This document shows positions 51,086 through 64,000 of a stretch of 64,000 nucleotides of DNA, in pieces. A program made the translations under genes and the position numbers. Position 1 is the first letter of the stretch; each line of letters begins with the position of its first letter. The stretch comes from an uncultured Roseburia sp. (GTDB lineage: Bacteria > Bacillota > Clostridia > Lachnospirales > Lachnospiraceae). The DNA is taken from assembly GCA_947644305.1 (NCBI GenBank), contig CANRYS010000004.1, positions 62,001 through 126,000 of the forward strand, in the 5' to 3' direction. The notes beneath the pieces are model-generated. The model saw nothing but the letters and a program-made list of their open reading frames with translations. It was not told the DNA's origin and did no database searches.

Positions 51086-51439
51086 CTAAGACATCTTCGG
51101 CTTAAACACCAGTGCCGCCAGAAAACTCAAAATCAACGCTCCAGCGATTCCGACCGCGGCCTGTTCCAGCCCACCGTAAAAGATTCCCACAAAGCCCTGG
51201 CTGTCCACAGCTTCCTTGACTCCCTTAAATAACAGATGCCCAAAACCGATCAGAGGAACCGTGGCACCGGCCTTTGCCCAGTTGGCAAAAGGCTCGTAGA
51301 TACGGACGGCGCTCAGCACCGCTCCCAGACATACCAGGAGGACCATGATCCGCCCAGGAAGAAGTTTTGTGTTGTCCATGACGATCTGTACCACCGCACA
51401 GATGGCGCCGCCTACCAAAAAAGTAATTAAATAATCCAT
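51086..51439 (-). CDS. spoVAE: Stage V sporulation protein AE
   Basis: This 117-residue membrane protein with three to four hydrophobic segments matches SpoVAE (SpoVAEb) in length and motifs (FLVGGAICAVVQIVMD, GATVPLIGFGHLLFKGV). It is part of the SpoVA channel of the inner forespore membrane that moves dipicolinic acid into the spore and out at germination. AAAGGAG lies about 7 bases before the ATG. It follows spoVAD by 15 bases. Confidence 0.93.
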   Translation of the reverse strand: MDYLITFLVGGAICAVVQIVMDNTKLLPGRIMVLLVCLGAVLSAVRIYEPFANWAKAGATVPLIGFGHLLFKGVKEAVDSQGFVGIFYGGLEQAAVGIAGALILSFLAALVFKPKMS

Positions 51440-51454
51440 ATTCTTGCTCCTTTC

Positions 51455-52492
51455 TTACTGTGCGATCTCCAGCATTACCCCATGGGCGATGCCTGGTACA
51501 CTATTTCCCTCGTTAAAACTGACTGTAGAAAGCAACGCTCCCGTCGGCACAAAGAGAACCCGTTTCCATTCGTGCTTTCGCATTTTGTTGAGAATGTAAC
51601 CTGTGAGGGTGATCGCACTACAGCCGCAGCCGCTTCCACCGGCATTGGTATCCTGCTCTTCATTGTAGTAGATCTCCGTACCGCAGTCCATGTGCTGCTT
51701 ACTGATATCATAACCATAGCCCAGCAGCATATCTTTCAGAATACGCTGGCCGATGGTTCCTAGATCCCCAGTGATGATCTTATCATAATAATCCGGCTGG
51801 ATGCCAAAGTCTTTTAGATTATTCAAAATACAGTCACAGGCTGCCGGAGCCATACACGCCCCCATGTTCATACTGTCCTTGATTCCATAGTCTGTGATCA
51901 CCCCTGTTGTCAGTCCGGCGATCTGTACGTAACCCGTCTCTTTACGTTTCCAGTTGCCATCTCCTTTACCCAGCACTACGGCACCGCTTCCAGTCACCGT
52001 CCACGTGGAGGAGTAGGGTCGCTGATTGCCGTAAGCCAGGGGAAAACGGAACTGTTTTTCTGCGCTGGCAAAATGACTGGAAGTAAGCGCCACCACGTAG
52101 TCTGCAAAACCGCCCTCTACCAGCATGGAGCCGATACCCATGGATTCTCCCATGGTGGAGCAGGCGCCATACACTCCAAACATAGGAATATTGAAATTCA
52201 TGATTCCAAATGAGGTAGCGATCAGCTGCCCCAGCAGATCTCCGGCGACGATATAACGGATATCACCGGGTTCCAGACCAGCATTGCGTATCGCGATGTC
52301 CGCCGCGATATGCTGCATCTTGCTCTCGGCTTCCTCCCAGGTGTTGCCGCCAAAAAGCGGATCGGTCTCCACAAAGTCAAAGTATTTTCCAAAGGCTCCA
52401 TTTCCTTCTTTTTCTCCGGCCACTGATGCTGCACCGATGATACAGGGCGGAACCGCAAACTGGACACTTCGTTTACCAACAGTTTTTTCCAT
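51455..52492 (-). CDS. spoVAD: Stage V sporulation protein AD
   Basis: SpoVAD is a thiolase-fold protein that binds dipicolinic acid as part of the SpoVA complex. The 345 residues from the ATG at 52492 (GGAG 9 bases upstream) fit the family's about 338. Segments such as GNTWEEAESKMQ, AGDLLGQLIATSFG, GVYGACSTMGESMG and GGSGCGCSA are characteristic. An ATG 15 bases upstream is an alternative, and much longer versions are unlikely. No spoVAC precedes it; the upstream gene is secDF, with its terminator in between. Expression is expected from a sporulation sigma factor, but no clear site was found. Confidence 0.92.
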   Translation of the reverse strand: MEKTVGKRSVQFAVPPCIIGAASVAGEKEGNGAFGKYFDFVETDPLFGGNTWEEAESKMQHIAADIAIRNAGLEPGDIRYIVAGDLLGQLIATSFGIMNFNIPMFGVYGACSTMGESMGIGSMLVEGGFADYVVALTSSHFASAEKQFRFPLAYGNQRPYSSTWTVTGSGAVVLGKGDGNWKRKETGYVQIAGLTTGVITDYGIKDSMNMGACMAPAACDCILNNLKDFGIQPDYYDKIITGDLGTIGQRILKDMLLGYGYDISKQHMDCGTEIYYNEEQDTNAGGSGCGCSAITLTGYILNKMRKHEWKRVLFVPTGALLSTVSFNEGNSVPGIAHGVMLEIAQ

Positions 52493-52574
52493 ATCTTCAT
52501 TCTCCATTCCGTGCACACTGAATATCATACCGTATACCAGAAGTACGCAGGTATTCTCCTTTACCTTCACATAA

Positions 52575-52616
52575 AAAAGATGCACATACCATTTTCCCAT
52601 AGTATGTGCATCTTTT
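52575..52616 (-). terminator. Terminator of secDF
   Basis: A perfect 15-bp stem (52575-52589 with 52602-52616) is flanked by A and T runs on both sides, 36 bases after the secDF stop. It insulates secDF from spoVAD. Confidence 0.9.
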
Positions 52617-52651
52617 CTATTTTCATCCATCGAAAAAATCAGGATTGTTAT

Positions 52652-54883
52652 TTATTTACTTTTCGCTTTCTTTTTGCTTATTTTGTTCAGGAAGAACCAT
52701 ACGGTACCTGCCAGACATACGGAAGAATAACATCCAGATATGATACCTGCGATCAGTGGAATCGCAAACTGACGAACCGCATCCACACCCATGATCGCCA
52801 GAACCACTACCATGATCAGCGTCGTAATAGAAGTATTGATACTTCTGCTCAATGTCTGAGTGATACTTTCATTTACAATATCTGCAACCTCTGTGCGGCT
52901 TCCCGCTTTCTTCCGGTTCTCACGAACACGGTCGAAGATAACGATGGTCGCATTGATGGAATAACCGACGATGGTAAGCATACATGCGATAAACGTACTT
53001 CCCACAGAGATGAAGGCACTTCCCACTGCGTACACCATCAGCACAACGATCACGTCATGGATCAGAGCCAGTACGGAGCTGGCGCCGAAAGCAAGGTTCT
53101 TGAAACGAATCCAGATATAGATCAACATACAGATCGCCGCAATGATCACCGCGATCACAGCATCCGTCTTCATCTCATTACTTACCGAAGCAGAAATTGT
53201 CTCGATCTCGATATTTTCTTTTGTCACACCATACTTCTCACCGATGGCAGTCACAACGGTCTTCTGCTGATCCTCTGTCAGATCCACCGTACGGATGATC
53301 AGTGTTCTCTCTCCAGCGACATCAGATATCTCCGCATCCGGCACACCGGCTGCTGTCTTGACCGCATCGGTAACTTCGGTCTTGAAATCTGCACTGGCGT
53401 TTCCGCTGCCATCAAAACCTTGAGCATTTTCATCGAAGGTGATGGAAGTAGAAGAACCGCCCATAAAGTCAAGGCTGTAATTCAGAATCTGTCCGGTCTG
53501 CACTTTATTAAAGATCAGGCCTCCGATGCAGAGCAGGAACAAAACTCCTGAAATAACGATATATTTTTTGAAATTTCCAACAAAATTGATTGCTTTTCTC
53601 TCTCTCTGAACACCAAAGAACTTCGGATTATCCAGTCCCAGACTAACCAAACCGTACAGGATCCATCTGGTGACAAAGATTGCGGTGAACATGGAAAGAA
53701 TAATACCAATAGCAAGGGTCTGAGCAAATCCCATTACCGTTCCCGATCCCTTAATGTAAAGTACAACTGCGGCGATCAAGGTCGTTACGTTACCGTCGAT
53801 AATCGCGGAGAGCGCTTTCTCAAAACCGATCTTGATGGCTGACCGAACAGTCTTGCCAGTGGCAAGCTCCTCACGGATACGGGTAAATATAATACAGTTG
53901 GCATCCACCGCCATACCGATAGCAAGGATTACACCGGCGATACCCGGAAGGGTAAGGGTGACATCCAGGGCATTCAGGGCCAGCAGTGTAGCTGCCACAT
54001 AAAGAACCAACGCAAGGGATGCAGCGGCACCTGGCAGACGATACATCACAATCATAAAGACAATGACAAGGATAAATCCGATGAGACCTGCATAGAGACT
54101 GGTCTCCAGTGATGTAAAGCCAAGTTTCGCTCCCACGATGTTGGAACGAATATTTTTCAGTTCCAGTGGAAGGGCACCGATACGAAGAGTGGCTGCCATA
54201 TCCTCTGCGTCTGAAAATTTATCAAAGCTTCCAGAAACAATAGCGACACCGTCTGTGATCGCTGTCTGGATCACTGGTGAAGAAACCTCTTTGCCGTCAT
54301 AGATAATGGAAAGAGCTTCCCCTACATGGTCGCTGGTGACGTTACCAAACTTCTTGGCACCTTTTCCATTAAATGTGATCTTAACCACATTCTCTGCCAC
54401 TCCGGTCTGGCTGTCCTGTTGGGTTGTCGCCTCTGCGGTGGAGATCATAGATCCATCCAGCAGTACTTTTTCTTTGTCATATGTGGCGGTTTTATCCTCA
54501 GCGATCTGACAGTCCGTCTGCAGCACAAATTCCAACGCGCCGGCTTTTCCCAGCTTGTCCAGCACTGCCTGGGGGTCCTCTACGTCCGGTACATCTACCG
54601 TGACGCGGTTGCTTCCCTCCTGGTACACAGATGCCTCTGTACTTTCATTTTCCACACGTTTCTGCATCTTATAAACCGTATCGCTCATCTCCTGAGCCGT
54701 CGGATTCTCTTTGGTCGCCTCATAGGTGACACTGACACCTCCGGCAAGGTCGAGACCTAAACGGATATTTTGGGCACTTCCTCTTTTGCCTGCCCCAATA
54801 CCTGTATACGCTACCACACCCATAGCGGCAGTCACAAGCAATATGAGCAAAATCTGAAAGATCCCTTTCGTCTTACTATTCAT
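52652..54883 (-). CDS. secDF: Fused protein-export protein SecDF
   Basis: SecDF uses proton flow to pull secreted proteins through SecYEG. The 743 residues are a natural SecD-SecF fusion, as in Bacillus. The SecD half (1 to about 440) has GLDLAGGVSVTYE and six membrane segments. The SecF half (about 440-743) has LDFMGGSSTSITF and six more, including YSINATIVIFDRVREN. A large outer domain follows the first segment of each half. AAAAGGAG precedes the ATG. It has its own promoter inside the end of tadA. Confidence 0.95.
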   Translation of the reverse strand: MNSKTKGIFQILLILLVTAAMGVVAYTGIGAGKRGSAQNIRLGLDLAGGVSVTYEATKENPTAQEMSDTVYKMQKRVENESTEASVYQEGSNRVTVDVPDVEDPQAVLDKLGKAGALEFVLQTDCQIAEDKTATYDKEKVLLDGSMISTAEATTQQDSQTGVAENVVKITFNGKGAKKFGNVTSDHVGEALSIIYDGKEVSSPVIQTAITDGVAIVSGSFDKFSDAEDMAATLRIGALPLELKNIRSNIVGAKLGFTSLETSLYAGLIGFILVIVFMIVMYRLPGAAASLALVLYVAATLLALNALDVTLTLPGIAGVILAIGMAVDANCIIFTRIREELATGKTVRSAIKIGFEKALSAIIDGNVTTLIAAVVLYIKGSGTVMGFAQTLAIGIILSMFTAIFVTRWILYGLVSLGLDNPKFFGVQRERKAINFVGNFKKYIVISGVLFLLCIGGLIFNKVQTGQILNYSLDFMGGSSTSITFDENAQGFDGSGNASADFKTEVTDAVKTAAGVPDAEISDVAGERTLIIRTVDLTEDQQKTVVTAIGEKYGVTKENIEIETISASVSNEMKTDAVIAVIIAAICMLIYIWIRFKNLAFGASSVLALIHDVIVVLMVYAVGSAFISVGSTFIACMLTIVGYSINATIVIFDRVRENRKKAGSRTEVADIVNESITQTLSRSINTSITTLIMVVVLAIMGVDAVRQFAIPLIAGIISGCYSSVCLAGTVWFFLNKISKKKAKSK

Positions 54884-54918
54884 TGTGAAAATCTCCTTTT
54901 CTAAAAATGTACCTAAAA

Positions 54919-54947
54919 ATTATAGCACAAACAAGCATTTACTTCAA
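54919..54947 (-). promoter_or_regulatory. Promoter of secDF
   Basis: Read leftwards, TTGAAG (54942-54947), a 17-base spacer ending TGC, and TATAAT (54919-54924). The -35 overlaps the end of tadA. Confidence 0.8.
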
Positions 54948-55418
54948 GTAATCTTTTTCCTTTTTTCGCATTCGAAGTTCTCGAAAAAAGCCGCTCATCA
55001 TCTGGCTGCACTCCTCTTCCAGAATTCCCTGTTCCACCTCCACTCTGTGATTAAATCCCTCCATCTGCAGAAGATTCACCACGGAACCAGCACAACCTGC
55101 TTTTGGATTCATGCTGCCGATGACAACCTTAGGGATACGCGCCTGCACGATCGCCCCGGCGCACATCGGGCACGGCTCCAGCGTCACATACATGGTACAC
55201 CCCTCTAGCCGCCAGTCCCCCAGAACTTTGCTCGCCTTATGTATGGCGCTGAGCTCTGCGTGGGCAAGAGTATTTTTTTTCTCATTGCGCTTATTATAAC
55301 CGCGAGCAATGATCTTCCCCTCCCAGACGATCACGCACCCAATGGGCGTTTCCATTTTTCCATATGCCTTCTTCGCCTGACGGAGCGCCTCCCGCATAAA
55401 GGTTTCATCCGTACTCAT
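54939..55418 (-). CDS. tadA: tRNA-specific adenosine deaminase
   Basis: TadA converts adenosine-34 of tRNA-Arg(ACG) to inosine. The 159 residues contain the zinc and catalytic motifs HAELSAI and PCPMCAGAI, and the family segment GCVIVWEGKIIARGYN. The length is normal. GGAGG lies 6 bases before the ATG at 55418; an earlier in-frame start would add 13 residues. It is transcribed from its own strong promoter, divergent from the Mrp/Mbh-type operon. Confidence 0.94.
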   Translation of the reverse strand: MSTDETFMREALRQAKKAYGKMETPIGCVIVWEGKIIARGYNKRNEKKNTLAHAELSAIHKASKVLGDWRLEGCTMYVTLEPCPMCAGAIVQARIPKVVIGSMNPKAGCAGSVVNLLQMEGFNHRVEVEQGILEEECSQMMSGFFRELRMRKKEKDYLK

Positions 55419-55447
55419 CGCTGTCCTCCATAATAAAATGTAAAAAT

Positions 55448-55476
55448 ATTGTAGCATAAGTATCTGGCAGCGTCAA
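55448..55476 (-). promoter_or_regulatory. Promoter of tadA
   Basis: Read leftwards, TTGACG (55471-55476), a 17-base spacer ending TGC, and TACAAT (55448-55453) make a strong promoter 30 bases before the ATG. Confidence 0.85.
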
Positions 55477-55494
55477 TTTTTCCTTATGTACCGG

Positions 55495-55523
55495 TTGCAA
55501 ACCTCACATGAATCTATTATAAT
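55495..55523 (+). promoter_or_regulatory. Promoter of the Mrp/Mbh-type operon
   Basis: TTGCAA (55495-55500) and TATAAT (55518-55523) are separated by 17 bases. The start of transcription would be about 31 bases before the first ATG at 55561. It is divergent from the tadA promoter, with about 20 bases between the two -35 elements. Confidence 0.85.
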
Positions 55524-55560
55524 AAGCAGAAGAATGAAAGAATGTGAGAGGAACTTAGCA

Positions 55561-56034
55561 ATGTATTTACTTTTCCTATTGTTTTGGATACTTTTGAACG
55601 GAAAACTGAATCTGGAGATTTTTCTTTTCGGCATATGTATCGCGCTGGCAGTCTATCTATTTTGCTGCAGATTTCTCGGCTATTCTCCAAAAAAAGATCT
55701 GATCTTTGCCCGCATATCACTGTATGTCCTGGGATATGCTTTTCTTCTTGTGGCAGAGATCGTCAAGGCGAATATCGGGGTATTAAAAGAGATCTACACC
55801 GAAAAAACTGAGGTGGAACCCTGTGTGGTGGAATTTACATCTCCTTTTGAGTCAGAGGTTTTGAATGTCATACTGGCAGATTCTATTACCTTGACCCCGG
55901 GAACCATCACCGTGGAGCTTTCTGGCAGAAAATTTACCGTACACTGTCTGGACAAGTCTATGTCGGAGGAGCTGGACTGCTCTTCCTTTGTCACATTGTT
56001 ACAGAAAATAGATCACTGCATAAACGCAAGCTGA
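55561..56034 (+). CDS. mrpE: MrpE/MbhA-type antiporter subunit
   Basis: This 157-residue membrane protein has the MnhE domain: two to three N-terminal hydrophobic segments (MYLLFLLFWILLNGKL...), then a soluble C-terminal part with the family motif LADSITLTPGTITVEL. The length matches MrpE (about 158). The ATG at 55561 has GAGAGG 9 bases upstream; longer in-frame starts are less likely. It is the first gene of an operon of at least ten, in the order E-F-G typical of Mbh/Mbx-type and archaeal-like Mrp modules. Confidence 0.9.
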   Translation: MYLLFLLFWILLNGKLNLEIFLFGICIALAVYLFCCRFLGYSPKKDLIFARISLYVLGYAFLLVAEIVKANIGVLKEIYTEKTEVEPCVVEFTSPFESEVLNVILADSITLTPGTITVELSGRKFTVHCLDKSMSEELDCSSFVTLLQKIDHCINAS

Positions 56035-56074
56035 TCATTCATCATAGAACGGAAGACTGACAGAAGGAGAAATC

Positions 56075-56383
56075 ATGTTACAGACTATACAATTGACTTT
56101 TTTTACCGGGGTGCTCATTCTGCTCTCCCTGTGCATCATCGCCTGTCTCATAGCGGCCATCAAGGGACCGTCGCTGGGAGACCGCATGGTGGCGGCAAAT
56201 ATGACCGGAACACTGACTATCATTGCCATTTGCGTCCTCGCCTGGCATCTGAATGAGGGATGGCTGGTGGACGTAGCTCTGATCTATGCCATGCTGAGTT
56301 TTATCGCAGTGGTCGTCCTGACAAAAATCTTTATCGGAAGCTACAAATCCGGTTCAGAAGAGGATGAAGACGATCCCCAATGA
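56075..56383 (+). CDS. mrpF: MrpF/MbhB-type antiporter subunit
   Basis: This 102-residue protein has three membrane segments and the MrpF core GPSLGDRMVAANMTGTL, followed by an acidic C-terminal tail (GSEEDEDDPQ). AAGGAG precedes the ATG by 6-7 bases. It is a small structural subunit of the antiporter module and follows mrpE by 40 bases. Confidence 0.9.
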   Translation: MLQTIQLTFFTGVLILLSLCIIACLIAAIKGPSLGDRMVAANMTGTLTIIAICVLAWHLNEGWLVDVALIYAMLSFIAVVVLTKIFIGSYKSGSEEDEDDPQ

Positions 56384-56462
56384 TGTATCTATAATATTGA
56401 ATAATGAGAAAAAAAGCCGGGAACGCTCTTATGCTGACGGCTTCAGAATATGGAGGAATACT

Positions 56463-56768
56463 ATGGAATGGTTACGATTCGCCATCGCGGCACTGCTTAT
56501 CCTTGGCGGTATTTTTACCGCTATATCGGCGGCGATCGGTGTATTCAAATTTAAGGAATGCCTCACAAGAATGCATGCGGCAGCCATGGGGGACACCCTC
56601 GCCCTGGCACTGGTCCTGATGGGACTTGTCCTTCTCTTTGGCATATCCTTCACCTCTTTGAAACTGGTGCTTGTGATCGTCTTTTTATGGCTGGCAAGCC
56701 CCGTATCCAGTCATCTGATCGCTCAGATGATGTATGAAAGGAAGAAAAGGGAACATGACAATATTTAG
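56463..56768 (+). CDS. mrpG: MrpG/MbhC-type antiporter subunit
   Basis: This 101-residue protein has three hydrophobic segments and the MnhG motif FKFKECLTRMHAAAMGDTL followed by SPVSSHLIAQM. The ATG at 56463 has GGAGG 6 bases upstream. In-frame codons upstream to 56364 overlap mrpF and are not needed. Its end overlaps the next gene by 14 bases. Confidence 0.9.
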   Translation: MEWLRFAIAALLILGGIFTAISAAIGVFKFKECLTRMHAAAMGDTLALALVLMGLVLLFGISFTSLKLVLVIVFLWLASPVSSHLIAQMMYERKKREHDNI

Positions 56769-57057
56769 CCTAATACTCGTTGTATTTCTCATCCTTTGTG
56801 CTGTCGCTGTATGCCTGAATAAAAATCTTCTGACGTCCATCGTGATCTTTATGTCATACAGTGTGATCATGTGCATCCTCTGGATCATTCTGGAATCCCC
56901 GGATCTCGCCGTCACAGAAGCCGCGGTGGGCGCCGGCGTTACCAGTGTGCTCTTTTTTGTAACCCTGAAACGGATCCATGCCATCAACACAGATGAGCGC
57001 GGCGAAAAAGAATCCATAGAGAATACAGATGAACAGAAAGAGGCAGAACGATCATGA
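56755..57057 (+). CDS. DUF4040 subunit (MbhD-like / MrpA C-terminal)
   Basis: This 100-residue protein has three membrane segments and the DUF4040 core SPDLAVTEAAVGAGVTSVLF, followed by a charged tail. This module corresponds to part of the C-terminal half of MrpA, or to stand-alone MbhD in membrane-bound hydrogenases. The start at 56755 has AAAAGGG upstream; ATG 56734 is possible. Its separation from an MrpA N-terminal part fits the Mbh-type organisation. It overlaps the next gene by four bases. Confidence 0.88.
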   Translation: MTIFSLILVVFLILCAVAVCLNKNLLTSIVIFMSYSVIMCILWIILESPDLAVTEAAVGAGVTSVLFFVTLKRIHAINTDERGEKESIENTDEQKEAERS

Positions 57058-58052
57058 GTAAACCGAGAAAAGATTATGAGAAAACATGGTGGCGCAGACT
57101 GGAGCGCTTTGTAGACGGAGAACGCATTGAAGTTCATGAGTATCATGATATTTTTGATGAAAATCCATCTTTTCTAAAAGAAGATATGCAGAAGCTAGAT
57201 CCTGTGACGCCACACAAAAAAAAGAAATCCGAATGGCCGGAACGTCTGGATACGCTGAAAGAGCTGTATAATCGGTATGAAAAATGGCCGGAAACCAAAG
57301 GAATCACCATTTTCAAGCGGATCTACGGCTGCATGGCTGTACTTTTTTGTCTTGCGCTGATCACCGTACTCCTGTTTACGGTATCCAATCTCCCCACCTT
57401 TGGTAGTGCAGATAATCCAGCTTCCAATGAGGTGGTGCAGCGATACATCGAAGAAGGTCTCGCAGAGACCGGCGCCGTCAACATCGTGGCGGGGATGATC
57501 CTGGATTATCGCGCTTTTGACACACTGGGAGAATCCCATGTGCTCTTTATCGCCGCCACCTGCGTGATGATCCTTCTGCGCGCAGACAAGCAGGGTAAGA
57601 AACATACCACGAAAAAGTCAATAGCACCGCAAACTAAACCAGATCCGATTCTGAAAGCGGCGGCGACCCTGCTCACCCCTTTTATCCTGATTTTCGGAAT
57701 TTATATTGTTCTGAACGGACATCTTTCTCCCGGAGGAGGCTTTTCCGGGGGAGCTATCATCGGTGCGGGACTGATCCTGGCGGCAAACGCCTTTGGCTTT
57801 GAGCAGACCGGTAGATTTTTCACGAGGAAAACCTATTCTGTCGTATCCCTGTTTGCCCTGTTGTTTTATTCCGCCGCGAAAAGTTATTCTTTTTACACCG
57901 GCGCCAATCATATCGAAAGCATCATCCCCAAGGGCACTCCCGGCGCCATTTTGAGCAGCGGGCTGATCCTGCCCCTGAACATCTGTGTCGGTATGGTAGT
58001 AGCCTGTACGATGTACGGATTTTACTCTCTGTTTAAAAAGGGGGAATTATAG
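57054..58052 (+). CDS. Fused MbhE-MnhB subunit with hydrophilic N-terminal extension
   Basis: The 332 residues have three parts. Residues 1 to about 88 are a charged, probably cytoplasmic extension (WWRRLERFVDGERIEVHEY...) not found in standard subunits. Residues about 90-180 are MbhE-like, with two membrane segments and ETGAVNIVAGMILDYRAFDTLGE. Residues about 200-332 are a full MnhB/MrpB domain with LTPFILIFGIYIVLNGHLS and GGGFSGGAIIGAG. In Pyrococcus Mbh these last two are separate subunits E and F. The N-terminal extension could be a docking site; that is inference. It starts in an ATGA overlap. Confidence 0.88.
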   Translation: MSKPRKDYEKTWWRRLERFVDGERIEVHEYHDIFDENPSFLKEDMQKLDPVTPHKKKKSEWPERLDTLKELYNRYEKWPETKGITIFKRIYGCMAVLFCLALITVLLFTVSNLPTFGSADNPASNEVVQRYIEEGLAETGAVNIVAGMILDYRAFDTLGESHVLFIAATCVMILLRADKQGKKHTTKKSIAPQTKPDPILKAAATLLTPFILIFGIYIVLNGHLSPGGGFSGGAIIGAGLILAANAFGFEQTGRFFTRKTYSVVSLFALLFYSAAKSYSFYTGANHIESIIPKGTPGAILSSGLILPLNICVGMVVACTMYGFYSLFKKGEL

Positions 58053-58445
58053 ATGAATAACACAATATTTACGAATTATTATGAAGTGGCGGCCGTCATC
58101 CTTTTTGGAATCGGTCTGACTACCCTTCTTCTTCATAAAAATCTAATTAAAAAAATTATGGGATTCAATATTATGGATACAGCGATTTATCTGTTTCTGA
58201 CTTCGAAAGGCTACATCATGAGTCACCTGGCACCGATCCTGGTGGGATCAGATATTCCAAATCCTTCCGGGAATGCCGTTAAAACATATACAAACCCGAT
58301 CCCAAGCGGACTCGTACTGACAGGAATCGTTGTCTCCGTCAGCGTGACAGCGCTGATGCTCGCCATCACCGTCCGCCTTTACAAACGATATGGCACGCTG
58401 GATATCGACCAGATCGCCCTAAGTGCCAAGAGAGAGGAGATTTAG
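58053..58445 (+). CDS. mrpC: MrpC/NuoK-type antiporter subunit
   Basis: This 130-residue protein has three membrane segments and the NuoK/MnhC-like core (FGIGLTTLLLHKNLIKKIMGFNIMDT, then DPIPSGLVLTG-type sequence here NPIPSGLVLTGIVVSVSVTA, residues about 86-105). GGGGGA precedes the ATG. A normal MrpC has about 113 residues; the extra length is a loop around residues 68-85 and a short charged tail. It sits directly before the first D-type subunit. Confidence 0.9.
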   Translation: MNNTIFTNYYEVAAVILFGIGLTTLLLHKNLIKKIMGFNIMDTAIYLFLTSKGYIMSHLAPILVGSDIPNPSGNAVKTYTNPIPSGLVLTGIVVSVSVTALMLAITVRLYKRYGTLDIDQIALSAKREEI

Positions 58446-58446
58446 C

Positions 58447-59937
58447 ATGAGCCTGGTTCAGAACTTTCCTTTTTTTAATATTATCATGTGCCTGGCTGGC
58501 GGTGTCACCTGCTCTGTCCTCAGAGGAAAATACGCAAGGCGTCTTACCATGGGACTTTTGACCGTGATCTTGTGTATGTCTGCCTCCGTTCTCGCCTTTG
58601 TATTCCGGTCCGGTGAAAGCTATACCTTTATGATGGGGCACTTTCCGGCGCCCTGGGGCAACGAGATCCGAGTGGGGATCTTAGAGGCGCTGATGGCTGT
58701 CTTTTTCAGCCTGATTATGATCCTCTCGATCCTCGGAGGGGGCAAGTACATCCTCTCTGATATCATAGAGACCAAACAAAATCTTTTCTATGTGCTGATC
58801 AACCTTATGATGAGCTCCCTGCTGGCGCTCATCTATACCAACGATCTCTTTACCGCCTATGTATTCATAGAGATCAATACCATCGCCGCCGGTGGACTGA
58901 TCCTGATCCGGGATACCGGACATACCCTGGTGGCTGCTACCAAGTACATGATCATGAGCCTGATCGGTTCCGGTCTGATCCTTATCGGACTTTCCATGCT
59001 CTATGGCATCACCGGACATCTTCTCATGTCAAACATACATGAAAGCGTGATTCAGATCAACGCCAACGGACAGTATACCATTCCCCTCACGGTAATCATC
59101 GTATTTATCTGTGTGGGTCTGGCGATCAAGTCCGCGCTGTTTCCCTTTCATTCCTGGCTTCCGGATGCCTACAGTTACGGAACGGCGGCTTCTAGTGCCA
59201 TTCTCTCCAGCCTGGTATCCAAGAGCTACATTTTTTTGCTGATCAAGATATTCTACCGTGTCATCGGTCTGGATATCATCATGCACTACCACGTAGAAAA
59301 TATCCTGTTCATCTTCGCGATCCTCGGCATGATCCTGGGGTCAATCAGCGCCATCCACCAGATGGACATAAGGAGGATGATCGCATTTTCCTCGGTGGCG
59401 CAGATCGGCTATATCTACATGGGCATCGGACTGGACACAGAGGCAGGTATTCTCGCCGCCCTCTTCCACGTCATCTCCCATGCGGCCTCCAAGTCCCTGC
59501 TGTTTATCTCTGCCAGAGGGCTGTCGGAAGTATCAGGAAACAGCAAGCTGTTTCCCGACTTAAAGGGCGCCGGCTATCGGAACATCATCGCCGGTATCGG
59601 TTTCAGTACGGGGGCTCTGTCGATGATCGGCATCCCTCTCTTTGCCGGGTTTACCTCCAAGGTTTATTTTGCCCTGGCCACTCTGGAGTCCTCGCCTTTT
59701 AAGCTCTGGACTGCCATGATCGCCCTGGCCATCAGTACGGTGCTGAATGCCGTGTATTTTTTACACACAGTATTAACCATATATACACCGATTAACAAGA
59801 CAGACCGCATCGGGTTCCGGGCAAAACGGCAGTTTACCCTTGCCATCCTGCTGTTTGTCCTTCTGAACCTGTTTCTGGGAATTGGTTCCAACCTCGTATG
59901 GCAGACGATCCAGTTGGGAACCGACATGTTTATCTAA
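58447..59937 (+). CDS. mrpD: D-type ion-pumping subunit 1 (MrpD/MbhH-like)
   Basis: This 496-residue protein with about 14 membrane segments belongs to the NuoL/M/N-MrpA/D family. The key transmembrane glutamate is in FIEINTIAAGG, and the key lysine in GLAIKSALFPFHSWLPDA, with the second lysine in LVSKSYIF. These residues form the proton path in relatives. The ATG at 58447 has GAGGAG 9 bases upstream. It is the first of four consecutive members of this family and the best match to the ordinary MrpD. Confidence 0.9.
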   Translation: MSLVQNFPFFNIIMCLAGGVTCSVLRGKYARRLTMGLLTVILCMSASVLAFVFRSGESYTFMMGHFPAPWGNEIRVGILEALMAVFFSLIMILSILGGGKYILSDIIETKQNLFYVLINLMMSSLLALIYTNDLFTAYVFIEINTIAAGGLILIRDTGHTLVAATKYMIMSLIGSGLILIGLSMLYGITGHLLMSNIHESVIQINANGQYTIPLTVIIVFICVGLAIKSALFPFHSWLPDAYSYGTAASSAILSSLVSKSYIFLLIKIFYRVIGLDIIMHYHVENILFIFAILGMILGSISAIHQMDIRRMIAFSSVAQIGYIYMGIGLDTEAGILAALFHVISHAASKSLLFISARGLSEVSGNSKLFPDLKGAGYRNIIAGIGFSTGALSMIGIPLFAGFTSKVYFALATLESSPFKLWTAMIALAISTVLNAVYFLHTVLTIYTPINKTDRIGFRAKRQFTLAILLFVLLNLFLGIGSNLVWQTIQLGTDMFI

Positions 59938-59984
59938 TAAAAGCTCCGCGAAAAACGAACTTTACTATAAAAAAGGAGGCTGTT

Positions 59985-61472
59985 ATGCTGGCGATACCAG
60001 TTTTACTGCCGCTGCTTTGCGGCATGATCTTATTTTTTGCTTCTTCCCGTCTGGAGAAATATCTTCCAGAGCGAAGAAACTGGCTGACTGGCTTTACTGG
60101 CCTGGTCACCATCCTTGTTTTCCTGTGCACTCTTGTCAATCTTGCGGCACCAGAAAACACTTTGATCCTCTGGCACATCAAAGAGGACGTACCGATCATG
60201 TTTCACCTCGACCGCCTGGGAAAACTATTTGCCGCCCTCGTTACTGCTATGTGGCTCCCGGTCACCATGCACTCCTTTGAATATATGAAACATGAATGGA
60301 AAAATGTACGATTTTATGGCTGTCATCTTATGACGCTCGGGGTTGTTCTCGGCATCTGCAGCGCGGGAAACCTGGTCACGATGTATCTTTTCTATGAGGG
60401 TATGACCCTTGCCACCATCGGCTATGTCATCCACTCCCAGACAAAAGAAGCCATATCCGCCGGTTTTAAATATATCTTTTACTCCATCGCCGGGGCATTT
60501 CTCGGCCTGATGGGATTTTTCTATATCTATCGGTTCGGCACTACCCTTGCCTTCACGCCGGGAGGAGTGCTGGATCCGGCGAAGGTGTCTGGACATGAGG
60601 GACTGCTCCTTGTGATTTTCTTTGGCATGATCGTAGGCTTTGGCTCCAAGGCAGGTATGTTTCCACTGCATGGCTGGCTTTCCACAGCCCATCCGGTGGC
60701 ACCGGCCCCCGCAAGCGCTATTCTCTCCGGTATCAATACCAAGATGGGAGTACTTGCGATTCTCCGGGTGATCTACTATATCGCCGGGGTCTCATTCCTG
60801 AAAAACACCTGGGTACAGACCGCATTTATTACCCTTACGTTGATCACCGTATTCATGGGATCAATGCTCGCCTACAAAGAAAAAATCTTGAAACGGCGAC
60901 TCGCCTATTCATCGGTCAGCCAGGTATCCTATATCCTGTTTGGGGCGTCGCTTATGCATCCCCTGGCGCTGACTGGCGCGCTGGCACATGTTATTTTTCA
61001 CTCCGTTATGAAAAATGGATTGTTCCTCTGTGCCGGCTCTATCATTTATAAGACAGGAAAAACAAAAATAGATGAATTAAAAGGAATCGGCAAACAGATG
61101 CCCGTCACCCTGATCTGCTTTACCCTGCTGGGGATCTCCATGGTGGGAATCCCACCATTTTGTGGATTTTTCAGCAAGAAAGACCTCTGTCTGGGAGCGC
61201 TGGCGACTGAGCTTCCCATTGTGCGCTATGCCGGTCCGGTGATCCTTCTGGTCAGCGCCCTGCTGACCGCCGGGTATCTTCTGGTCCCCGCCTTTCAAGC
61301 ATTTTACCGCACACCGGACGGGGTGGAAGAAGGGGAAAAACCCAAAAGCTGTGAGGCAAATCTCTGGGTCCTGATTCCTCTTGTTCTTTTGGCAGCCGCC
61401 GCTGTCATACTGGGAATCTGCTTTTCTGGATTTGAGAAACTCTGCACCGATATCGCATACCTAGTACAATGA
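59985..61472 (+). CDS. D-type ion-pumping subunit 2
   Basis: This 495-residue protein of the same NuoL/M/N-MrpA/D family has about 14 membrane segments. The essential glutamate is in LFYEGMTLATIG and the lysine in GFGSKAGMFPLHGWLSTAHP; the next helix has NTKMGV. It is clearly different from subunit 1, so it is not a recent tandem copy. AAAGGAGG lies 7 bases before the ATG. A duplicated pump subunit of this kind is expected in complexes that span more ions per electron pair. Confidence 0.9.
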   Translation: MLAIPVLLPLLCGMILFFASSRLEKYLPERRNWLTGFTGLVTILVFLCTLVNLAAPENTLILWHIKEDVPIMFHLDRLGKLFAALVTAMWLPVTMHSFEYMKHEWKNVRFYGCHLMTLGVVLGICSAGNLVTMYLFYEGMTLATIGYVIHSQTKEAISAGFKYIFYSIAGAFLGLMGFFYIYRFGTTLAFTPGGVLDPAKVSGHEGLLLVIFFGMIVGFGSKAGMFPLHGWLSTAHPVAPAPASAILSGINTKMGVLAILRVIYYIAGVSFLKNTWVQTAFITLTLITVFMGSMLAYKEKILKRRLAYSSVSQVSYILFGASLMHPLALTGALAHVIFHSVMKNGLFLCAGSIIYKTGKTKIDELKGIGKQMPVTLICFTLLGISMVGIPPFCGFFSKKDLCLGALATELPIVRYAGPVILLVSALLTAGYLLVPAFQAFYRTPDGVEEGEKPKSCEANLWVLIPLVLLAAAAVILGICFSGFEKLCTDIAYLVQ

Positions 61473-61564
61473 AAATCCGTTGTACTAAATGGTATTTTTA
61501 ATAAGCCTGGCGGAACTGCCTGTTGACAGTTTCCCGCGGAATGCATGAAAGAAATGGTGATAAA

Positions 61565-63085
61565 ATGAATGGAATCTTACTTATTATACCTGTTCTTCTT
61601 CCCATACTGGGCGGAATGCTGCTTCCCCTGTTCCCATTTACCAGCAGAAAGCAGCGCAATATTTATGTGGAAACCATCGTGTTGATCAATTCAATACTGA
61701 TGTGGTATCTGCTGATCACACATCCTATGTCCTACACGCGACTGATCAACCTGGCTGGTACTCTGGAAGTATCCGTGCATCTGGATGGTGCCGCTATGGT
61801 ATTTGCGGCACTGGTAGCCACTCTGTGGCCTTTTGCCACACTGTATGCCTTTGAATACATGAAGCACGAGGGAAGTGAAAAGCGCTTTTTTTCCTTTTAC
61901 ACCATCACCTACGGCATCACCCTTGGCATCGCACTATCCGCCAATCTCATGACTATGTACATGTTCTATGAGATGCTGACACTGGTTACCATTCCTCTGG
62001 TCATGCACTCATTTAAAAGAGAAGCAAGATTTGCCGGCCGGAAATATGCCTATTATTCCATCGGAGGCGCTGCCTTTGCCTTTATCGGTTTTATCTTTAT
62101 CCTGAATTACGGCAGTTCTATGAATTTCACCTTTGGCGGTGTACTGGACACAGCTAAGGTCGGAACAGATACCAATGTACTTCTCGCCGTTTTTGTATTT
62201 ATGGTACTGGGGTTTGGCGTAAAAGCTGCGATTTTCCCGCTGCATGGTTGGCTGCCCACTGCCTCCATCGCACCGACGCCGGTCACAGCCCTGCTCCACG
62301 CAGTCGCCGTCGTCAAATCTGGTGCTTTTGCCATTATCCGTATCACCTACTACATCTTTGGTACGGAATTTTTACGGGGCACCTGGGCCCAGTATACCGT
62401 ACTTTTGTTTGTGGCGGCTACGATCCTGTACTGTTCTTCCAGCGCAGTTAAGGAACAGCATTTAAAACGTCGTTTCGCTTACTCTACCTCCAGCAACCTT
62501 TCCTATATCCTGCTCGGTGTACTCCTTATGACACCGGAGGGACTGGTGGGAGGATTTACCCATATGATCTTTCATGGCATAATGAAGATCACACTGTTTT
62601 TTGCCGTGGGCGCTATCATGCACCAGACCGGCAGCACCTATATATATGAGATATCTGGATATGGGAAAAAGATGCCGGTGGTCTTCGCCTGCCTCTCCAT
62701 CGCGGGAATCGCTCTGATCGGCATTCCGCCTCTCACCGGCTTTATCAGTAAATGGAATATCGCCACGGCTGCCGTCGACGCCTGGCAGCGGGGAAACAGG
62801 CTGGCGCCGGTGATGATCTGTGTCCTGATCCTGTCCGCCTTCCTGACATCGATCTATATCTTTACGATCATAATAAAAGCCTATCTGCCAGCTAAGTTTA
62901 CGCCGGCACCAGATGGACAGGCACTGGCAGACAAGCAGGCAGAGGGCGGCACCAGAGAGATCTGTGATCCAAACTGGCTTATGAAACTACCTATGGTCCT
63001 GTTTGCTATACTGATCTTTTTATTCGGCATATATTCCGCGCCCCTGATGAACTTTTTCAGCCAGGTGGCGTCAGGAAGGATCTAG
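61565..63085 (+). CDS. D-type ion-pumping subunit 3
   Basis: This 506-residue NuoL/M/N-MrpA/D family member has the glutamate in MFYEMLTLVTIP and the lysine in GFGVKAAIFPLHGWLPTAS, with AVVKSGAFAII in the next helix. Its nearest look-alike in the operon is subunit 2 (shared AFEYMKHE-type segment and PAKVS/TAKV loop). The start at 61565 uses a GGTGAT site. An ATG 24 bases upstream is possible. A 92-base gap precedes it, without a clear promoter or terminator. Confidence 0.9.
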   Translation: MNGILLIIPVLLPILGGMLLPLFPFTSRKQRNIYVETIVLINSILMWYLLITHPMSYTRLINLAGTLEVSVHLDGAAMVFAALVATLWPFATLYAFEYMKHEGSEKRFFSFYTITYGITLGIALSANLMTMYMFYEMLTLVTIPLVMHSFKREARFAGRKYAYYSIGGAAFAFIGFIFILNYGSSMNFTFGGVLDTAKVGTDTNVLLAVFVFMVLGFGVKAAIFPLHGWLPTASIAPTPVTALLHAVAVVKSGAFAIIRITYYIFGTEFLRGTWAQYTVLLFVAATILYCSSSAVKEQHLKRRFAYSTSSNLSYILLGVLLMTPEGLVGGFTHMIFHGIMKITLFFAVGAIMHQTGSTYIYEISGYGKKMPVVFACLSIAGIALIGIPPLTGFISKWNIATAAVDAWQRGNRLAPVMICVLILSAFLTSIYIFTIIIKAYLPAKFTPAPDGQALADKQAEGGTREICDPNWLMKLPMVLFAILIFLFGIYSAPLMNFFSQVASGRI

Positions 63086-63098
63086 GAGGTGATGACAT

Positions 63099-64000
63099 AT
63101 GGATTGTTCAATGATGAGTTTTACACTGGAAAACCCGCTTAGCCCTTATTTTATCGGAATCACACTGGCGGTATATCTGGTCACGGCCAGTACTCTTCCC
63201 CAGCTTTTAAAGGGTTCCCGCAATGGAAGACGTTTTTTGCTGTTCTATATACTAACTGGCGCAGCTTCTCTTGGGATCTTCGCTGCCGCAGACTTTTTTA
63301 CCCTGTTCTGCTTTTTTGAGATCATGACGTTATGTTCTTTCGCCTACGTGGGCTGCGATGAGAGTCAGGCATCCCGGAAAGCCGCCATGTCCTATCTGAT
63401 GTATGGTATCCTGGGCGGGCTTGTCATGCTTTTTGGTCTGATGCTGATCTACTCACGTTTTGGAACACTGGGCTTTCAGGAGCTGGCAGATACATCATTT
63501 GCGCCGACTGACACGCCTCTGCTCTACACCGCTGGGAGCTGTCTCCTCTTTGGATTTGGCGCCAAGGCAGGCATGTTTCCCCTGCACACCTGGCTACCAA
63601 AGACCTATACCGCAGCGCCATGTGCTGGTACGACGGTACTGTCAGCAGTACTTTCCAAAACAGGCATCTACGGAATCTTTATGGTCAGCTTATGTCTGTT
63701 TCAAAATAATCCCGCGGGGGAAACCTGGGGGCTTGTCCTGTCGATATTGGGCTGTCTGACGATGTTCACCGGTGGACTGTTAGGACTGTTTTCCACCAAC
63801 ATAAAACGAACTCTCGCCTGCTCTTCCATGTCCCAGATCGGATTTATCCTGGTAGCCATCGGATGCAGCGATTCCCTGGGTGCCCTGTTACACACGGTGA
63901 ACCACTCCTTGTTTAAGCTAATCCTCTTTACCATCGTGTCCTTCCTCTTCGGCATGACTGGAGAACTGGATTATAACCGTCTTGCCGTCTTTGCCAACCG
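63099..64000 (+). CDS. D-type ion-pumping subunit 4 (partial, runs off the window)
   Basis: The reading frame opens at the ATG at 63099, behind a perfect AGGAGGTGAT 9 bases upstream, and stays open to the window end (300 codons). It is a fourth NuoL/M/N-MrpA/D family member, with the glutamate in CFFEIMTLCSFAYVG, the lysine in GFGAKAGMFPLHTWLPKTY, and SAVLSKTGIYG in the next helix. The N-terminal region is more like HyfB/NuoM-type subunits of hydrogenase or redox complexes than MrpD. Its C-terminus is missing. Confidence 0.88.
   Translation, partial: MDCSMMSFTLENPLSPYFIGITLAVYLVTASTLPQLLKGSRNGRRFLLFYILTGAASLGIFAAADFFTLFCFFEIMTLCSFAYVGCDESQASRKAAMSYLMYGILGGLVMLFGLMLIYSRFGTLGFQELADTSFAPTDTPLLYTAGSCLLFGFGAKAGMFPLHTWLPKTYTAAPCAGTTVLSAVLSKTGIYGIFMVSLCLFQNNPAGETWGLVLSILGCLTMFTGGLLGLFSTNIKRTLACSSMSQIGFILVAIGCSDSLGALLHTVNHSLFKLILFTIVSFLFGMTGELDYNRLAVFAN

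Follow-up and report, generated by a model that had tools for sequence, protein, structure and literature searches.

The stretch of DNA analysed here (the window; 64,000 nucleotides, positions 62,001 to 126,000 of contig CANRYS010000004.1, assembly GCA_947644305.1) comes from an uncultured Roseburia sp. Near its end begins a ten-gene operon with four consecutive genes for antiporter-like D subunits, here called D1 to D4. Judging from its sequence, this operon probably encodes a stand-alone group 3 Mrp-type monovalent cation/H+ antiporter with four proton-conducting subunits. The four-D operon is widespread in the Lachnospiraceae and conserved over many genera.

Open reading frames (ORFs) and Pfam matches give the gene order E-F-G-MbhD-(MbhE+MnhB)-C-D1-D2-D3-D4 on the + strand, from 55486 to 64904 in window coordinates. 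This confirms the order E-F-G-DUF4040-(MbhE+MnhB)-C-D-D-D-D described in an earlier note on this DNA. The families assigned along the operon are MNHE, MrpF, PhaG/MnhG, MbhD, MbhE+MnhB, Oxidored_q2 (MrpC) and four times Proton_antipo_M; the Mrp small subunits E, F, G, B and C and the MrpA-C parts (MbhD, MbhE) all match above the Pfam cut-off. The part of D4 beyond the window was read from the same contig (G000:C4, locus L006). In several ORFs the likely start codon lies inside the ORF and not at its beginning:

55486..56034, + strand: mrpE (PF01899, E 1.4e-28); likely start 55561, behind an AGAGGA site
56075..56383, + strand: mrpF (PF04066)
56364..56768, + strand: mrpG (PF03334); likely start 56460
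56734..57057, + strand: MbhD/DUF4040, first part of MrpA-C (PF13244)
57054..58052, + strand: MbhE+MnhB fusion, the rest of MrpA-C plus MrpB (PF20501 and PF04039, alignment)
58053..58445, + strand: mrpC, NuoK-like (PF00420)
58423..59937, + strand: D1, proximal-type antiporter subunit (PF00361, trees); closest solved chain MbsH; likely start 58447
59898..61472, + strand: D2, middle antiporter subunit, sister of D3 (PF00361); closest solved chain MbhH; likely start 59985
61523..63085, + strand: D3, middle antiporter subunit, sister of D2 (PF00361); closest solved chain MbhH; likely start 61565
63099..64904, + strand: D4, NuoL/MrpA-N-like subunit of 601 amino acids (Pfam, predicted fold); L006:8099-9904, running 904 bases past the window end; AGGAGG site at its start

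Group 3 Mrp is defined by the absence of mrpA, with mrpD only, sometimes in multiple copies (PMC8415708; all papers are cited here for excerpts of their text). In line with this definition, there is no fused MrpA, and Proton_antipo_M (PF00361) matches exactly four genes in the whole genome at E <= 0.001. MNHE has a single match in the genome, and the small-subunit cluster is likewise single.

Redox modules and conservation of the operon

The earlier note took the operon for the membrane arm of a redox-driven pump whose electron-transfer genes lie past 64 kb. The Mrp/Mbh-type arm stands, but it is not the arm of any redox-driven pump of known type, and the expected genes do not follow. D4 ends at 64904 as the last mrp gene; prmA begins 20 base pairs on, and genes for a sigma factor and for a beta-propeller protein come next. 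Extending the contig, proposed as a check for NuoB, NuoH or hydrogenase-like genes, thus led to the end of the operon after D4, an outcome that the note itself had named as speaking against its idea.

The wider search gave the same answer. In the genome, which is 99.99% complete, nothing matches NuoB (PF01058), NuoH (PF00146), the 49-kDa subunit (PF00346) or the [NiFe] large subunit (PF00374), families that matched in 11/14, 11/14, 11/14 and 5/14 control genomes, respectively. We searched 50 loci with 13 redox proteins of E. coli (nuo and hyf), and none matched in the retrieved stretches of the 43 that carry a D4 gene (23 from the family and 20 from the class). They did match the positive controls L058 and L061 (Mbh/Ech-like clusters of the family) and L120 (a nuo operon); L060 gave a nuoE match, and L119 a weak match lying on an annotated sulfite reductase gene. 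No redox match was found in the retrieved stretches of the best 80 loci of a genome-collection scan. A search for the NuoB family in 28 genomes gave 3 with a match, and 22 of the 23 D4-bearing genomes among those searched lack it.

Because the operon ends at D4 and redox matches are absent from the genome and from the retrieved stretches of the loci, a redox arm encoded past 64 kb is ruled out, and for the known redox modules the redox-pump reading does not hold. On the basis of the literature and the redox searches, we file the operon as group 3 Mrp and not as a redox complex. The RnfD/NqrB family has one match in the genome, which suggests an Rnf-type primary pump; a pump of Rnf (or Nqr) type is probably present in this organism. 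Elsewhere in the Lachnospiraceae, clusters L058 (G137:C31) and L061 (G050:C30) join Mrp-type or D-type genes to NuoB/NuoH/hydrogenase-like genes.

With a cut-off of E 1e-60 for D4-type matches, which we set from the match list, 26 of 150 family genomes, our own included, have one. Loci were retrieved from 22 of the 25 others (G006, G107 and G128 were omitted for their short contigs). D1-D2-D3-D4 are contiguous in all 23 family loci, own locus included, and the complete ten-gene order is found in 20. L063 is truncated by a contig end, L053 lacks an adjoining E-F-G and L052 an adjoining E-F-G-MbhD, with MNHE on another contig in both of these genomes. The best 80 loci taken from the genome-collection scan show the full order in 66 cases; contig ends interrupt 13 others, and in L184 two ORFs make up D4. 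Judged by record title, 59 of these 80 belong to Lachnospiraceae and 15 to no named family. The congener G108 has neither D4 nor MNHE. Neighbour genes vary, the widest neighbour family occurring in 5 of the 28 loci compared. A contig-edge or assembly artefact is ruled out, as the operon is continuous on a 164-kb contig and recurs in other genomes.

D subunits, cation site and ancestry

Alignment bears out the transmembrane Glu and the ion-path Lys that the earlier note had seen in all four D copies. The Glu of transmembrane helix (TMH) 5 and the Lys of TMH7, TMH8 and TMH12 are kept in each subunit:

D1: E150/K236/K267/K413
D2: E167/K251/K282/K427
D3: E150/K234/K265/K410
D4: E74/K156/K187/K328

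Among 391 aligned D proteins, Glu5, Lys7 and Lys12 are invariant (D1 92/92, D2 97/97, D3 99/99, D4 103/103). Lys8 is equally invariant in D1, D2 and D4 and is kept in 85/99 of D3. The D3 genes with Asn at the TMH8 position are those of L048, L140, L144, L149, L151, L153, L155, L156, L164, L168, L181, L183, L186 and L194; a HAVAVV motif ahead of this position is kept in the five Asn-bearing sequences compared.

Pairwise identity among D1 to D4 is 22–29%, apart from D2 and D3 at 39%. A recent tandem duplication is ruled out by these values and by the trees, in which D1, D2, D3 and D4 each form a supported clade across several genera. The copies thus do not group as recent duplicates in the tree that had been proposed as a check; they are old and clearly different, as claimed, and they are probably functional.

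The predicted fold of D4 finds its best matches among NuoL/ND5-type and MrpA chains and reaches into the lateral-helix region (the fold list gives entry titles with one best chain per entry, and the identity as NuoL/ND5/NdhF or MrpA was read from chain letters and lengths). The long helix comprises residues 472–510; the comparison barely covers residues past 516. Since the predicted fold is NuoL/MrpA-like, D4 in effect supplies an MrpA-N-like subunit as a gene of its own. Hence, the claim that the MrpA N-terminal half is missing holds in that there is no fused MrpA, but D4 appears to provide such a fold separately. D4 comes in two lengths: about one tenth of the ORFs lack TMH1-2 and start just behind or overlapping the D3 stop. 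At most 84 residues precede GluTMH5 in 10 of 103 D4 ORFs, the window's D4 among them, versus a median of 141. The idea of D4 as a dying gene is ruled out by the good ribosome site at its start and the recurrence of the short form.

The small subunits keep the acids of the cation coupling and exit points. MbhD Glu62 (94/94) aligns with E69 of MBH MbhD (6cfw_D), named as the homologue of MrpA E706 (PMC7419157). D156 (96/97) and E160 (97/97) of the MbhE-MnhB protein correspond to MrpA D792 and E796, a placement made through the equal-length range 230-282 / 759-811 of 6z16_A. The acids that characterise group 3 at these points (MrpA E706, D792 and E796, or their MBH counterparts; PMC7419157) are therefore present. 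MrpC Asp42, invariant in 97/97, and Asn39 align with D37 and N34 of MBH, which together with E69 of MbhD are considered able to bind two cations (PMC7419157). MrpG His71 aligns with MrpG H42, and MrpF Asp36 and Asp66 with D29 and D59, of which D29 is essential by mutagenesis (PMC7419157). In this comparison we disregarded one match to an unrelated PDB chain (E 0.043) as due to chance. By these alignments the cation site has the MBH/MBS form, not that of Bacillus-type Mrp. The MbhE-MnhB protein begins with a variable, charged, soluble stretch of ~80 residues (window 57054-57300); most MbhE ORFs of three-D sets (91–103 amino acids), like the fused protein of L053, have no room for it.

The class Clostridia offers related sets with fewer D genes. 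A D4 match at 1e-80 occurs in 31 of 391 genomes of the class, and of the 28 genomes not met in the family set we examined 20:

5 four-D sets that are complete and carry the MbhE-MnhB fusion: L099, L100, L102, L103, L104
1 four-D set, cut: L101
8 three-D sets with separate MbhE and MnhB: L107-L114
1 further three-D set with its D1 ORF broken: L106
3 D1-D4-D4 sets: L115, L117, L118
1 set with an extra D: L116
1 locus where one D2-type and one D4-type gene are all that the 20-kb stretch has of the Mrp set: L105 (G485:C140)

Three-D sets occur without redox genes alongside. For instance, a three-D set is annotated on the Peptoclostridium acidaminophilum plasmid NZ_CP007453, with no redox gene annotated beside it.

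In a careful tree of 76 proteins, including seven four-D and eight three-D loci, D1 groups with the D that opens the three-D sets (support 100/100), and D4 with the D that closes them and with both later D of the D1-D4-D4 sets (100/100). D2 and D3 pair (99/98) within a clade that includes the middle D of the three-D sets (100/100). A quick tree of 104 proteins agrees. By these groupings, D1, the middle D and D4 are ancient, and the duplication into D2 and D3 predates the split of these four-D genera. D2 and D3 therefore look like an old duplication of the middle subunit of three-D sets, and the three-D form would be ancestral. The deep fork is weak both where it puts D1–D3 nearer to MbhH, MbsH and NuoN (91/75) and where it puts D4 nearer to NuoL, MrpA and MbsH' (85/92). 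Support is also weak for the position of the D4 clade relative to NuoL, MrpA, HyfB and MbsH' (85/92 and 80/60) and for which side MrpD takes (74/41).

A promoter-like site found by consensus scan (55495..55523, + strand, 10/12 consensus matches) lies upstream of the likely mrpE start; it is weak, because the region has 20 such sites versus a shuffled mean of 14.6. Further upstream, on the - strand (window 51086-55457), are a SpoVAC/SpoVAEB-family gene, SpoVAD, a fused SecDF and a deaminase (probably tadA). This group of genes points to a spore-forming host.

Predicted mechanism and alternative explanations

In the proposed antiporter, E, F, G, MbhD, MbhE-MnhB and C would form one cation path. 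From homology and gene order, D1 would stand against C, with D2, D3 and D4 following outwards; D4 would cap the arm, and its lateral helix would brace it. The membrane potential would drive an inward flow of H+ through the D subunits, coupled via a chain of charged residues to outward movement of Na+ (or K+), and the complex might run in reverse when the Na+ gradient is larger. One cation path with four linked proton channels and no redox input would make an electrogenic cation/proton exchanger. Such a complex could exchange the ion gradient of a primary Rnf-type pump against protons, for pH and Na+ control. We infer assembly into one complex and conduction by all four channels, as well as direction, ion and ratio.

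For Mrp, a ratio of about 2 is likely but not firmly established (PMC7419157). A speculative extension, which we consider doubtful, is that the exchange ratio depends on how many D subunits there are. The natural stand-alone Mrp forms, with one to four D on a single cation path, would then act as gears. With about four protons per cation, the four-D form could sustain a very steep Na+ (or K+) gradient from the weak proton-motive force that a fermenting anaerobe has. For complex I, how charge passes along the arm and how much is moved per antiporter-like subunit are still open questions. Channel number could be varied, with redox chemistry left untouched, in a stand-alone complex that exceeds complex I in D subunits and stands beside natural one-, two- and three-channel forms.

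Several observations weigh against a four-channel group 3 antiporter. The NCBIfam matches name the same Mrp subunits, yet all those shown fall under the curated cut-offs. In one of the 23 D4-bearing genomes searched, G010, a NuoB-family gene lies on a separate contig. The canonical His37/His40 pair of MrpC is replaced by Thr43 and Tyr46, with an MBH/MBS-type acid instead, and Tyr46 occupies the place of MBH H41 / Mrp H40; the pair is absent too from two group 2 MrpC sequences aligned. At the place of MrpF D35, a residue assigned to the cation entry path (PMC7419157), stands Asn42, invariant in 92/92 four-D and 14/14 three-D rows, which lowered our confidence. Finally, the window's D4 lacks TMH1-2 and has a long tree branch, and the TMH8 Lys is Asn in 14 of 99 D3 proteins.

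These last two observations speak for the idea that only some D subunits conduct, the extra ones being spacers or regulators, with an H+/cation ratio near that of ordinary Mrp. We regard this as a possible though less likely explanation, because the invariance of Glu5, Lys7 and Lys12 across all aligned D proteins is not expected of silent spacers. The D genes might also be alternative subunits of different Mrp complexes (D1 alone, D1 with D4, and so on) rather than parts of one long arm. Activity does not require four D, since some Mrp sets have a single D (P. furiosus; PMC8415708) and others A and D (Bacillus). However, the genome has one MNHE match and one small-subunit cluster, the order D1-D2-D3-D4 is fixed wherever it is complete, and a D1-type gene comes first and a D4-type gene last in three-D and four-D sets alike, which makes this explanation improbable.

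The operon might instead encode the membrane arm of an Mbh/Mbs/complex I-like redox pump, with the redox module encoded elsewhere and docking in trans. This would accord with MBH/MBS subunits as the closest solved relatives of D1–D3, MbhD, MbhE and C, with the MBH form of the cation site, and with the redox-linked clusters in the same family. Yet the genome lacks all four redox families, 22 of the 23 D4-bearing genomes searched lack NuoB, and the retrieved stretches of neither the 43 D4 loci nor the best 80 scan loci gave a redox match. Moreover, a site of MBH type does not in itself call for a redox module, since the stand-alone Mrp of P. furiosus has MbhD/MbhE-like parts (PMC8415708). Docking in trans is therefore highly improbable, and a stand-alone group 3 antiporter with four D subunits remains our preferred explanation.

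Comparison with known systems

Multi-mrpD group 3 Mrp is already in print; the four-D form is new as far as the literature was searched. We found no published four-D Mrp operon in a search that left most subscription papers outside, and the excerpts of PMC12361115 and PMC6349859 describe none. Mrp antiporters have been divided into three groups, with two mrpD in cyanobacterial and Microbacterium clusters and markedly different clusters in anaerobes (PMC5703873). Nitrospira has two extra mrpA/D-like genes behind mrpD (PMC7784846), and NPL-UPA2 has MrpEFGBBBCD plus MrpDD (PMC6305446). Like the Peptoclostridium set, these combine several D-type genes with Mrp small subunits, but with three D, not four. 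The three-D loci of Clostridia differ further in that MbhE and MnhB are separate genes, whereas they are fused here.

The stand-alone mrpEFGBB'CD of P. furiosus shares the order E-F-G-B-B'-C-D and has neither mrpA nor a redox module (PMC8415708). However, it has one D, and its MbhD is fused to MbhE, while our operon has four D, a separate MbhD and an MbhE fused to MnhB. The canonical Mrp of groups 1 and 2 (Bacillus, Anoxybacillus, Dietzia; PMC7419157, PMC5703873) has the same small-subunit module and the same key residues in its D-type subunits. In contrast to the separate genes found here, it has a single MrpD and a single MrpA, in which MbhD-MbhE is joined to a NuoL-like half. It also has MrpF D35 in place of the Asn of the four-D set, and the MrpC His pair, absent here, is seen in 6z16 and 7qru (A. 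flavithermus and B. pseudofirmus Mrp).

Among MBS, MBH and complex I, D1 is closest to MbsH, D2 and D3 to MbhH, and the predicted D4 fold to NuoL. MbsE shares the type of fusion, as MbhE+MbhF (PMC8415708). These complexes have redox subunits of the NuoB/CD/H type, of which we found none here, and their D-type subunits number one in MBH, two in MBS and three in complex I, compared to four in this operon.

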